Shown here: in pieces, positions 5,168-15,390 of the stretch
How positions within the stretch are numbered: position 1 is the stretch's first letter
Layout of the letters: every line of letters starts with the position of its first letter
NCBI GenBank assembly: GCA_027922465.2
Contig: BQMF02000383.1
Span: 124,001 to 188,000 of the forward strand
Direction of reading: 5' to 3'
Source: Turritopsis dohrnii
Taxonomy: Eukaryota; Cnidaria; Hydrozoa; Anthoathecata; Oceaniidae
DNA length: 64,000 nucleotides
Position numbers and translations under genes: made by a program
Notes under the pieces: model-generated
What the model was told of the DNA's origin: nothing
The model's input: only the letters and a program-made list of their open reading frames with translations
Database searches by the model: none

Positions 5168-8100
5168 CTTCGAAAGTGTATTTCCCAGTGACAGGCGTGT
5201 CTGGCGGTTGGCTATGAAGAAAACAAACAAACAAACAATAACAAGATAAGCATTAGTGTGTCAAAACAACAGTAAGTTATACCTTCTATAATTGCTCGGT
5301 GGGTGAAAAATCGTCTCAGTTGGTTCCGACAGCAATCCACCATATTTGCTGATGGCATATATTCGGAATTTATAGCAGATTTCTTTTGCGACAGGTAATC
5401 GTATTTTGGTTCCATGAGAATGTGAAAGTATGACATCGTATTTTTCACCAGTTTGCGGTGAATTTGCCGACAGTTTTGTTCCTGTGACTTGAAACGAATT
5501 CTCAGGATGAACCCAGGAAAGTTGTATTAGCTCATTTGATAACTTTTGTACCTGAAGATTTTCCACAGGTTCTGGTCGCATGAACCTAAATGCATAGTGA
5601 GTGAATGAGTGGACAATGCCCTGAGATATCAATAAAAATATAAATTGTAATTTGAGATGTAAAAGTACTTAAATATATATACCTTGATGCAGCGTCTACA
5701 TCTGCTTTTGGCTTACTTGGCACATCACTTGGCATAGTAACTTGACAATATTTCTTGTGTTGGGAATGGTTTTTGTTGATTTTGATGGCAGTTATCTTTG
5801 ATTCCCTGCAATACGTAGAAACAGCATAGAGACTCAGCTCATCTAGATCGTCAGTAAGTACGTATGAAAATATATCCATTAAATTGTCCTTAGACATTTC
5901 GTTATAGTGACATAACTTTCCTAAAATGGTATCCATTGATTCTTTCTCCTTTACATGATAGTTCTTTGTATCGTGATAATAGGGAACAATCAACACCAAA
6001 TGATCTGTGGAACGTGCAACCATCTCGATAAAAAATTGTCTTTTGAAATGTTCTTTTGGATCGATAAGAACGATAACTTGTGAACACTCCATTCCTCTGC
6101 AGCCAGTGTAATCAGTAATCACTGTTTTTGATTGCAGTGACGTTTCATTAAATGATTGATAATTGGAAACCCCCGGTATGTAAAGAATGTAAGTCCTTTT
6201 TAAACCATCTAAAGCAGAGATGCAAATCCTGTATTCATCTTCATTATTACATATGATCAATCTCTTCTCATTTCTTCTTTCTGCATCGTAGCAGTGACGT
6301 TTTAGTGCTATGGCCAACAGTATTGATGTTTCGATGGCAGGTACGTTGTCTTTCGTATGTTGATTTAAAAATATTAAAACAGGTTTTCGACCATACATGT
6401 TATGTCCGCAGTCCACACATTGCTGAAAGATGAAAGTGGTTTCAATGGAAGTATTAGAGCTTCCAAACTTCTTATCAAGGTCAAGAGCAACTGAATCAAT
6501 CTCATTTGGGTCTATATGATGCACTTGTAGTTCATTGCTTGCTGCTGATGGTATTCCGTCAGATAACTGATCTGATCCTGTGTTGCTGTTTTCACTGATA
6601 TCTATTTCCTTTGGTTCAGATGCCTTCAGAATTTTCCTTTCCTTTGTTTTCTGCTGTGGTTGTGATATTCTGGTTGACTGACTAATTCCTTCTGTTGATA
6701 TTTGAATGATCTTAGAGACTTGCTTGGTAGTACGCATTGATAATGATAACGACATTACTTCCATTCCACAGTCTTTATAACATTGAAAGGAATCGTGTTC
6801 AGTTCTTTGGTTACCGATAACATTAGCACGCCTTTTCTCCATTGAACGTATCGAAAATAAAATATGGGATTTGCCGAGGGATACATCATTTTGTTTGAAG
6901 ATGTTTTTCAGGCCAAGTGCTTCTACTGCATTGATGACTTCAGCATCAAGCTCATCAACAATCAGATGAAACCTTCTCCCTGAAGCTTTCGCTTTCTCTA
7001 TCATGGCTAGCAGCATATTTGAAACAGTGAAACGAATCTTTTTACTTTGGTTTTCACAAATTTGTTCAAATTCCTTTGATAGCCAGATTTCTACATCCTT
7101 ACAGTTTCCAAAAAGGACATTTGCATTTCCAGCATGGCCAGCATCTTTTATTCTCAGGAAAACATCTTCAAAGTCTTTCAGGTACAAGCTGTCGTTGTCA
7201 AATAAGACAAAGTATATATCTACAGGTTCTGTTGCATGTTTGACCAAATGTTCAAGAAGATGCCTTGTCACTACAGACTTGCCACTTCCATATCCACCAG
7301 TGACGATTCTCCAAAAGTTCTCACAAAACACGACCTTCATCTGCTCTTTTGTTAACCACATCGATAAAATTTTTTCAGTCACAGTCCCAAACAAAAGCTT
7401 CGGTTCAATTCTTTTAGTGGCAAGAAAACCGAAAATGTAACTGATTGCAAGTATTGTAGTTTCGTAACCATGGCTTGAAGAATAACATGGGTCTGGTGTG
7501 ATGGCCTGGATATGAAAGTGCAAACCTGACAGTATTTCTTGCAAGTCCTTTTCTAGGCAATGTTTATTTAAAATGAGAACATTTTCACATTTGACTGTAA
7601 TTTTTGGAGCAACTACGATGTTGATGTATGATTGTTTTTTTCCAAGTAGATTAGTGAACACGTAGGAAAATAATCGACAAAAGTTATCACCATCCTTCAA
7701 GGAATTCAGAGCTCCTTCTTCACTTTCAGCTTCACTGTAATTTATGATGAAGACGCATTGCTTTACGTAATCAAACAATAGAAATTGTTTTTCTTCACCA
7801 ATTGACGAAGGTTCAATTCCCAGTTTATCAAAAATGTCATTAAGATCAAGATGAAGCATCTTACAATGTGCAACAAGATTATATTTGGTTATCAAAACTG
7901 TGTTAGGCAATTCAAATTTGGCTGCAACATCGTATATCCTACTTTTACACATATATGCTGGTGGAAACTGTATATTGTCATTGAACATATGATCTTCAAA
8001 CGTTAACTTGAAATAGTCAGAAAAAAACTTTTTACATCTCTTGGTATAAGCTTGAAATGTGGTATAGGTGGCATCCAGTTTACCACTAGATACAACAATC

Positions 8101-14100: not shown

Positions 14101-15390
14101 GCAGTTTAGTTTTTTGGTTAATATAAGGTACGTTTTGCAGGGTTTCAAGAAACAGAAGGGCGTAAATTTTTGTCCCAATTTACACCAGCGTCCCAAGTAG
14201 CCCCGATAACGAAATTTGCGTACTGTTTTATGATTTGTAATCAAAATTCCCTGGAGTGTCACACACAATGTTTTTACTGATATTGATATTCAAAGATCAA
14301 ATTCATATTCCATGAACAAACCTTGGGAGAATCTGATTGGACAGAACACAAAATAAATTTGATAAATAAATATTATACACATACCTGGCAGGACTTTTAC
14401 CAAATATATCTATGTAAAAAAAAAGATACAAACAGATAAAAGACAATAACTTATGTTAAGTGGTCATTACAATAGTATATTCCATAACTTGTACCTTCAT
14501 CAATCTCATGAACCAAGTCTTCTTCATTAAGAAAGGTCAGTAATTCCTTCAAATAGCTCCAAGTAGGTGCTTTATTTTTTTGAAACCACTTTATGAGAAC
14601 TTTGTACAGTCTCTCATTCACACTCTTGTCCAAATCAACTCGGATAGCTTCATATTCATTATATTCCAAAAGAAAATGCGCCAATATCCTTTCCAGTCCA
14701 GGCACTTTCATTGAAATTTTATCGAAAACATCAACTCTTTTATTGTTATCTTGAAAATATTTGTCATCACCTGGAATTAGAAAAACATACATTGCAGGCT
14801 TTAAACTGACTCCTATATGCTGCACTTTACTCTTTATCTTTTTTTTTTCTTTCAGATAAATTAGGTACTGGCAAAACAAAGAACTTCATTTATGTACCAC
14901 AATAGAATAACTTTCAGAAAAGCAGGACTGGAAACATTAATCACTTGAACATTGTGTAAACCAATATGTGTTGATATACCTGCGAAAGTTGGCAGTTGTC
15001 TGATATGCCTTGGAGTTATAATATGTTTTTCAAGATGACATGAAGTTAGTATCTCATTGATAGATGGCACAAAACCTTTAATATCACAATATGATACTTG
15101 ATGAGATAACATATATGTAATACATTCCAAAATTGGTCTGTCCGTCTTGCCACCATATCTGCAAAACAAATCTTCAACTCTGTCTTTATCTTCACTCAGT
15201 AAGATCCTACAAAATGACTTCTTGTTCTTTTCACCACTGAGTCTTTTGTCAATTAAGTAAGTAATGCAACGCACTAAAGACACAAAAAAATTATTCTACA
15301 TTACTACATATGCTTAGAATAAAAACTATTCCACATTCCATAAAGATACATACCTTCCTGGTCATTCAAAATATCTTCTGCTTCTTCCAT
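5168..15390 (-). CDS. Death-fold / SF1 helicase-like NTPase / fibronectin III protein
   Basis: Eight exons join with matching phases: 15390-15354, 15273-14980, 14770-14495, 14409-14385, 8513-8482, 8221-5683, 5585-5283, 5211-5168 (3550 nt, at least 1183 residues). Residues about 13-105 are helical and may be a second death fold. About 124-202 fit a death domain ([18 protein letters not shown], a conserved Trp in LIKWF, then YLKELL). After a linker comes an SF1-type motor: Walker A GGYGSGKS (about 530), Walker B LIVDELD (about 641), motif [18 protein letters not shown] (about 925) and motif [14 protein letters not shown] (about 957). An FN3 domain (about 1070-1165) follows. A stretch near [16 protein letters not shown] could be a degenerate NERD/nuclease-like fold, which is weak. 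A probable intracellular sensor. The 3' end is not certain; a tiny last exon at 4463-4438 fits the phase. Introns are 63-209 nt except intron 4 (5.9 kb, transposon-filled). Confidence 0.75.
8756..9469. mobile_element. Fold-back elements with TAGCCTGGTACCCA ends
   Basis: The left end AGCCTGGTACCCATTAGGCG at 8756 is mirrored by AGTGGGTACCAGGCTA ending at 9469. A second copy of the left 57 bp, identical, lies at 9138-9194, so two elements are nested or arranged in tandem. The interior is dense with partial palindromes of GTTAAGCTTAAC and TTAAGGCGTTAA type and repeats of GGCGTCTAGAATGAA. No coding capacity. It sits in intron 4 of the death-fold/NTPase gene. Confidence 0.75.
9607..9806. repeat. 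(ATCT)n microsatellite, about 200 bp
   Basis: About 50 ATCT units with a single T-for-C interruption near 9659. All three frames are open and give Ser-Ile-Tyr-Leu repeats, which are not genes. Confidence 0.98.
10507..10764 (+). pseudogene. P2X7 intracellular-domain-like leader (partial)
   Basis: An 85-codon frame starts [10 protein letters not shown] and contains [14 protein letters not shown]. This matches the leader found before the zinc-binding region of P2X purinoceptor 7-like intracellular-domain proteins that are abundant in cnidarian genomes (from memory, not searched). The expected Cys cluster after HW is lost: the frame runs into the antisense of the THAP fragment and stops. A TGACGTCA palindrome lies 51 bp upstream of the ATG. 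Confidence 0.5.
10716..10946 (-). pseudogene. THAP zinc-finger fragment
   Basis: 76 codons starting [12 protein letters not shown], then FRFP, a Trp (RWLHN), and [10 protein letters not shown]. This is the C2CH pattern of the THAP DNA-binding domain (Cys-x4-Cys, then CxxH), as used in P-element transposases and host regulators. The frame ends where it meets the P2X7-like piece, so the rest of the protein is missing. It starts with a plausible Met directly at the domain. Confidence 0.75.
11346..11579 (+). other. Unassigned open frame
   Basis: 77 codons including a moderately protein-like stretch ([19 protein letters not shown]). The opposite strand is also open over 11267-11548. No domain recognised and no splice partner found, so it may be a repeat remnant. 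Confidence 0.15.
11783..12196. mobile_element. MITE with TTAAGGRGAYTTTTTT ends
   Basis: Left TTAAGGAGACTTTTTTGAGT and right AAAAAAATCCCCTTAA are inverted repeats extending about 40 bp inward through copies of GCAAAAATAAATCCACGCAA. About 414 bp, non-coding. Confidence 0.75.
12317..12481. mobile_element. hAT-like MITE, 165 bp
   Basis: The ends CAGTGGTGGACCTAGA and CTGGATCCGCCACTG are imperfect inverted repeats of the CAGTGGCGGATCCAG type common to hAT elements. No clear 8-bp target duplication remains. Confidence 0.6.
12482..13313. other. Intronic AT-rich DNA, nothing recognised
   Basis: Part of intron 4 of the death-fold/NTPase gene. No exon-like frame, transposon end or RNA gene seen. Confidence 0.5.
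13314..14208. mobile_element. Probable inverted-repeat element (GGCTACTTGGGAC ends)
   Basis: CGTGGCTATTTGGGACA at the left and TCCCAAGTAGCCCCG at the right are imperfect inverted repeats. Further internal copies of TTGGGAC/GTCCCAA lie at 13540-13560, 13805 and 14170. Non-coding. Confidence 0.45.
14451..15390 (-). CDS. Death-fold-only short isoform by intron 3 retention
   Basis: If the donor G|GTACAAG at 14494 is not used, exon 3 reads through for 14 codons to a TAA at 14453-14451. The product is 216 residues, made only of the N-terminal helical region and the death domain, close to the size and layout of FADD (death-effector plus death domain). Such a form could compete with or relay signals from the full-length NTPase. 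Whether it is made depends on splicing, which the sequence alone cannot show. Confidence 0.4.

Follow-up and report, generated by a model that had tools for sequence, protein, structure and literature searches.

A stretch of 64,000 nucleotides from the hydrozoan Turritopsis dohrnii (contig BQMF02000383.1, positions 124,001 to 188,000; hereafter the window) carries on its minus strand a chain of exons, 15390-5168, which is predicted to encode an intracellular Death-domain signalling protein of about 1180-1205 residues. It would be regulated by nucleoside triphosphates (NTP) through a motor resembling those of superfamily 1 (SF1) helicases and is likely to act in immunity or apoptosis. To this reading as a whole we assign a probability of about one half. 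The predicted order from the N terminus is an unclassified fold, the Death domain, a second unclassified region, a P-loop NTPase with an SF1-like Q motif and Walker A, which may include a second half of the RecA type, and finally an FN3 domain. The open exon chain, the Death domain, the P-loop and the FN3 domain are the parts that the sequence itself supports, and from these we infer a single transcript and the kinship of the motor with SF1.

Open reading frame and domain content of the predicted gene

Joined in silico, eight minus-strand exons give 3550 nt that read in frame as 1183 residues without a single stop, and all seven introns are of the GT-AG type. The first-pass annotation of this DNA, which had proposed eight exons without a phase break and had quoted several motifs from them, is borne out insofar as the joined frame stays open and these motifs are present in the joined translation. 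However, exon 3 can also be spliced directly to exon 6, again in frame and without a stop. The same intron contains 17 phase-compatible short segments (≤40 nt; exon 4 may be among them) and 18 segments that could be used as a single cassette exon of up to 285 nt. Since the frame stays open without exons 4 and 5 and many equivalent candidates exist in the intron, the inclusion of these two exons is a choice and not a finding. At the 5' end, an in-frame TAA starts 18 nt upstream of the ATG of exon 1, and CTTTCTCTTTAAG upstream of this ATG could be the acceptor of an intron in the 5' untranslated region. At the 3' end, reading through exon 8 without use of its donor continues to a stop at 5100, with an AATAAA at 5014, and exon 8 may be the terminal exon. 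An alternative acceptor of exon 7 at 5620, instead of 5585, changes the downstream frame and the FN3 domain is lost.

The phases of exons 3 and 6 agree, for which the chance expectation is 1 in 3. Furthermore, exon 6 has no Met in frame ahead of its residue 78 and therefore requires an upstream exon. Both points favor, yet do not prove, that the exons at 15.4-14.5 kb and at 8.2-5.2 kb belong to one gene. Alternatively, exons 1-3 might encode a small Death-domain protein and the P-loop and FN3 domains a separate one, with a 5' exon of the latter unrecognised within the 5.9-kb interval between exons 3 and 6. Exon 3 can indeed read through to a nearby stop (open reading frame (ORF) 14451-14885), and this scenario also gains from the dispensable exons 4 and 5, from the abundance of similar candidates and from the eight AATAAA sites in the interval. 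Against it speak the phase agreement and the need for an exon upstream of exon 6. The length of the interval can in part be explained by a transposon-like element with terminal inverted repeats and a THAP-domain ORF, and by simple repeats. In addition, Death folds and NTPases are found together repeatedly (PMC8195603, PMC8260672). All in all, we consider two separate genes unlikely, but take this alternative seriously, and continue with the single gene.

Codon usage adds little to this model and in part weighs against it. Stretches that are open by chance reach similar codon scores: for exon 2 (10.3), 87 such stretches among 7802 overlapping windows have a median of 5.3 and a maximum of 20.0, and for exon 3 (6.8), 97 among 7808 have a median of 2.9 and a maximum of 19.1. 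With exon 7 at -0.3, all three exons fall within or below the chance range. Exon 6 scores high, but exon 6 itself was the training set.

Exon 3 very probably encodes a Death domain. When it was first compared with ankyrin-1, -2 and -3 and NRADD fragments, its summed score of 181 exceeded the shuffle mean of 90.2 (standard deviation 10.2) and was reached by none of 1000 shuffles, while two other segments of the protein stayed at chance level (732 and 826 of 1000). As the ankyrin-3 comparator had been picked after a chance-level match (E 1.4), its own test is not independent, and the comparison was consequently repeated for each comparator with p75 added. The score of exon 3 was then reached by none of 2000 shuffles for ANK3, by one of 2000 each for ANK2 and NRADD, and by two of 2000 for NRADD and p75 jointly, with the ankyrins excluded. 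Other parts of the protein do not compete: exon 3 scores 62, 56 and 37 against ANK2, ANK3 and NRADD, whereas the best of 11 other segments reaches 32, 29 and 25. The alignment spans the C-terminal part of the Death domain and includes an IR...S...L..W pattern common with the ankyrins, to which the remainder of the protein is unrelated. Several results count against this assignment. ANK1 and p75, taken singly, do not stand out (558 and 262 of 2000 shuffles). The Pfam Death match of the exon 3 piece (E 0.023) is below the curated cut-off with an unrelated family adjacent at E 0.035, and for the full-length protein Pfam lists no Death match at all. A phmmer search of the PDB with exon 3 alone listed no Death domain, and single-sequence structure models were uninformative, with predicted local distance difference test (pLDDT) values of 60.5 and 33.8, and the six-helix fold expected of exon 3 is not settled by such a model. 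Exon 2 resembles shuffled sequence in the comparison with Death domains, as its summed score is equalled by 233 of 1000 shuffles and its best score by 64 of 1000, and no Pfam family matches it. The Death domain of the first-pass annotation is thereby supported in exon 3 only. Neither exon 2 nor exon 3 matches the Pfam TRADD-N family, a result that applies to Pfam and not to profiles of the invertebrate TRADD-N clades.

FN3 domains occur in, or form the scaffold of, proteins such as Titin, DCC, neogenin, interleukin 12 (IL-12) beta and Tencon. With exon 7 as query, phmmer listed 19 PDB sequences up to E 10, namely five of Titin (best E 7.8e-5), four of IL-12 beta, four Tencon designs, two of contactin-3 and one each of DCC, neogenin, myosin-binding protein C and fibronectin. 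Although the Pfam fn3 match is below the cut-off (E 0.0032), these FN3-type chains make the predicted FN3 domain, already suggested by the first-pass annotation, a firm assignment.

Coordinates of the exons, the motor motifs and the intron 4 element in the window
Feature	Position	Strand	Residues	Remark
Exon 1	15354-15390	-		ATG + 12 codons
Exon 2	14980-15273	-	13-110	about 98 residues; open, in phase
Exon 3	14495-14770	-	111-202	very probable Death domain
Candidate exon 4	14385-14409	-		25 nt; phase-compatible, dispensable
Candidate exon 5	8482-8513	-		32 nt; phase-compatible, dispensable
Exon 6	5683-8221	-	from 223	single long ORF (2.5 kb); 845 whole codons
Exon 6, first part			223-505	unclassified
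Exon 6, second part			about 506-985	predicted P-loop motor; Pfam P-loop matches
LTKEQ (Q-motif-like) and Walker A GGYGSGKS	7275-7355	-	511-537
Walker B LIVDELD	6945-6965	-	641-647	top SF1 motif II window; equalled by 460/2000 shuffles
Motif IV-like	6687-6758	-	710-733	top motif IV window; 139/2000 shuffles
Motif V-like	6060-6128	-	920-942	top motif V window; 211/2000 shuffles
Motif VI-like	5982-6047	-	947-968	second-best motif VI window (best: residue 683); 636/2000 shuffles
Exon 7	5283-5585	-	about 1071-1160	predicted FN3 domain
Exon 8	5168-5211	-		last of chain
Transposon-like element	10304-11184			in intron 4; 881 bp; perfect 18-nt terminal inverted repeats starting and ending TTAA
THAP-domain ORF	10719-10967	-		inside the intron 4 element; Pfam E 1.3e-10

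The motor between SF1 helicases and STAND switches

The prediction of a P-loop NTPase in exon 6 is firm and agrees with the first-pass annotation: clipped out of the protein, the domain matches the Pfam families NPHP3_N (E 7.8e-6) and AAA_22 (E 1.2e-5). To which class this NTPase belongs is a more delicate matter. In favor of SF1, the LTKEQ element is the sole L[TNS]xxQ in the protein, and the distance of 21 from its Q to the K of Walker A equals that of UvrD, Rep, HelD and a plasmid UvrD-like helicase, i.e., of four out of five references, while the annotated start of the fifth (L006) lacks a Q motif. An hhalign comparison with a four-sequence SF1 profile gave P 4.2e-7 and a probability of 92.7 for the part spanning the Q motif and motif I, values that are not shuffle-calibrated. 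The clipped domain furthermore matches AAA_19 with E 9.4e-4, which is below the cut-off, and AAA_19 also matches the PIF1 helicase of the window. Beyond Walker B, look-alikes of motifs IV, V and VI follow in the order known from the SF1A helicases UvrD, Rep and HelD, and the top windows for motifs II, IV and V and the second-best one for VI lie where they are expected. The ordered chain of five motif profiles scores 36.4, which 11 of 2000 shuffles reached.

Several points weigh against SF1. The motor sequence read in reverse still attains 33.6 with the same motif chain, and the chain places motif Ia at residue 599, while it is expected near residue 556. Each motif by itself has a score that 106-636 of 2000 shuffles attain. 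Among three control proteins, E. coli Gpp outscores the motor for motifs II and VI, and RhlB for motif V. For the C-terminal half of the motor, neither hhalign against the SF1 profile nor the Pfam helicase families gave a match, and Pfam scores of the clipped domain against UvrD-helicase (E 0.084) and the SLFN-g3 helicase (E 0.11) are weak. In addition, two motifs of the SF1A helicases fail in the whole protein. Motif II has DELD in place of DExQ, which takes the form DE[FY]Q in all five references, and motif III, GDxxQ, is absent although present in all five references. Since these two defining motifs fail, we do not file the motor as an SF1 helicase, and the label 'SF1 helicase sensor' exceeds the evidence. 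Of the SF1 helicase-like motor proposed in the first-pass annotation, the Q motif and motif I fit well, motif III and the glutamine of motif II are missing, and motifs IV to VI are in order but weak.

The best Pfam matches rather point to another class. If the NTPase were a STAND-type switch, akin to nephrocystin-3 or NACHT, the whole would be a divergent NLR-like Death-domain protein without helicase ancestry. NPHP3_N exceeds its cut-off on the clipped domain (26.6 versus 24.8 bits), AAA_22 comes close (26.1 bits, cut-off 27) and nSTAND3 is listed with E 0.016. In addition, a strand-like stretch after Walker B ends in SIRS, in a protein that lacks SF1 motif III, and this stretch resembles the STAND sensor, TSRP. 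Death domains also accompany NACHT in cnidarians (PMC8260672). However, the NPHP3_N match is partial, covering residues 25-146 of the 231-residue piece from the P-loop to Walker B, and falls below the cut-off in the whole protein, while Pfam matches neither NACHT nor LRR. Furthermore, LTKEQ at SF1 spacing and ordered look-alikes of motifs IV, V and VI, to our knowledge, are not expected in STAND proteins. We thus regard a STAND-type switch as improbable rather than far-fetched, and in our judgement the predicted motor is SF1-like ahead of STAND by about two to one.

The region between the Death domain and the motor (residues 223-505) was also considered as a nuclease of the NERD or PD-(D/E)XK type, given a likeness near residue 368. 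This candidate was rejected as neither Pfam nor NCBIfam gave a match.

Comparison with known Death-fold proteins and a possible mechanism

Mov10 is an SF1 helicase of the UPF1-like type. In cnidarians and brachiopods, invertebrate TRADD-N proteins, usually with a DED, are fused to Mov10, DDX60 and RIG-I-like receptors, and an antiviral role has been proposed for such fusions (PMC8195603). Their layout, a domain of the Death-fold superfamily combined with a nucleic-acid motor, is like that of the protein described here, which in contrast has no recognised TRADD-N, no Pfam match of the Mov10 or DDX60 type and an additional FN3 domain. Consequently, the statement of the first-pass annotation that the combination is undescribed holds only in a narrow sense. 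A literature search, which covered titles and abstract openings and mostly papers outside subscription journals, named no family combining a Death domain, an SF1A motor and FN3. The comparison drawn at the same time with RIG-I and the NLRs is fair as far as layout is concerned. RIG-I-like receptors likewise place Death folds ahead of an NTP-driven motor, but their motor is of the SF2 DExD/H type and is accompanied by CARDs and by a RIG domain at the C terminus (PMC8260672). None of these three parts was matched by Pfam here: DEAD and the RIG C-terminal domain have no match, and ResIII, on the clipped P-loop, gets no further than E 0.02. In cnidarians, Death domains are combined with NACHT as well (PMC8260672). 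The NLR, NACHT and STAND proteins share the sequence of a Death domain followed by a P-loop switch, and the best Pfam P-loop match here is of the STAND type; the protein nevertheless differs from them by its Q-motif-like element, its possible second RecA half and the lack of NACHT and LRR matches.

From the domain layout, the most likely mechanism is that of an NTP-regulated switch, of which cell location, trigger, oligomerisation and output are what we infer. The motor half might bind a trigger, nucleic acid being our first guess, together with nucleotide, and would then shift its shape or oligomerise. The Death domains would thereby be clustered and could recruit Death-domain adaptors, leading to apoptosis or to signalling of the NF-kB type. 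Inspection by eye shows no obvious signal peptide in the N-terminal residues, and in a cytosolic protein the FN3 domain might serve as a spacer or contact surface. With the motif II glutamine and the motif III GDxxQ lost, a switch appears more plausible than unwinding, and a processive helicase function is less likely.

One might go further and speculate that the protein represents a third type of animal sensor in which a motor is coupled to a Death fold. Its motor would belong neither to SF2, as in RIG-I, nor to NACHT/STAND; it would be a switch derived from SF1A and gated by nucleic acid, from which the coupling motifs of a helicase have been lost. We consider this doubtful. Prototypical pattern-recognition receptors are reported to be lacking in medusozoans, among them the hydrozoans (PMC8260672), and a protein with a Death domain and a motor-like NTPase would be a candidate substitute for them. 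With the full-length protein as query, the Death domain and the NTPase both stay below their Pfam cut-offs, so surveys based on such cut-offs would overlook this gene and similar relatives. If real, an SF1A-derived sensor class would thus escape such surveys in a lineage from which prototypical receptors are reported to be missing.

Search for relatives and genomic surroundings

The searches by shared words gave no relative, which counts against the main reading. In a word-based search against 5.8 billion proteins, where candidates must share exact 5-residue words, residues 220-1065 gave no relative at E 1e-3 among 7992 candidates scored, and a shorter motor region gave none at E 10 among 7303 candidates. 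Because the database includes hydrozoan proteins, this absence carries some weight. Either the gene evolves fast, or sampling of its family is poor, or the word filter missed that family. Viral contigs contained no pattern match, and of three stretches in prokaryote genomes that matched the pattern none was confirmed. By sequence, exon 6 found nothing in the PDB at E 1 and one unrelated match at E 10, while the P-loop piece lists KaiC (E 0.83) and PcrA (E 1.6). A pseudogene or a decaying copy without function would fit the lack of relatives, the degenerate motor motifs and the transposase pieces upstream and in the intron, but is highly improbable in view of a 2.5-kb stop-free exon, intact GT-AG sites and a high codon score, even if the latter comes from the training set itself.

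The surroundings of the predicted gene hold several repeats and mobile elements, and the GC content is 34%. The TTAA ends of the intron 4 element correspond to a piggyBac-like target. Directly upstream of the gene, a broken mariner-like transposase was recognised by eye at 16343-17427. A tandem repeat of about 128 bp follows at 18995-20152, and a related copy in inverted orientation lies about 20 kb off at 39723-40062. At 21817-24140 lies a Harbinger pair, composed of an open HARBI1-type transposase frame of 369 residues on the minus strand and a plus-strand ORF of 390 amino acids that is possibly the DNA-binding partner of the transposase. Among the matches listed for this transposase, the best named ones come from Hydractinia symbiolongicarpus, with 66% identity over 99%, and from Clytia hemisphaerica, with 69% over 69%. 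Together with the GC content, they make a hydrozoan host likely, although transposons can pass from one species to another. Fragments of a PIF1-type helicase ORF, Helitron-like, occupy 27967-30649. A secreted or membrane multidomain protein is probably encoded by minus-strand ORFs at 35499-38741, which contain MAM-like (weak), TSP1 and NIDO domains. At the opposite end, positions 1-920 form a minisatellite of 42/84-nt units that on its minus strand encodes a long repeat rich in Asp, Ser and Thr and runs off the window. An extension of the C terminus of the predicted protein into this repeat ORF was considered and rejected: phase-compatible acceptors exist, but AG sites are plentiful in the repeats.

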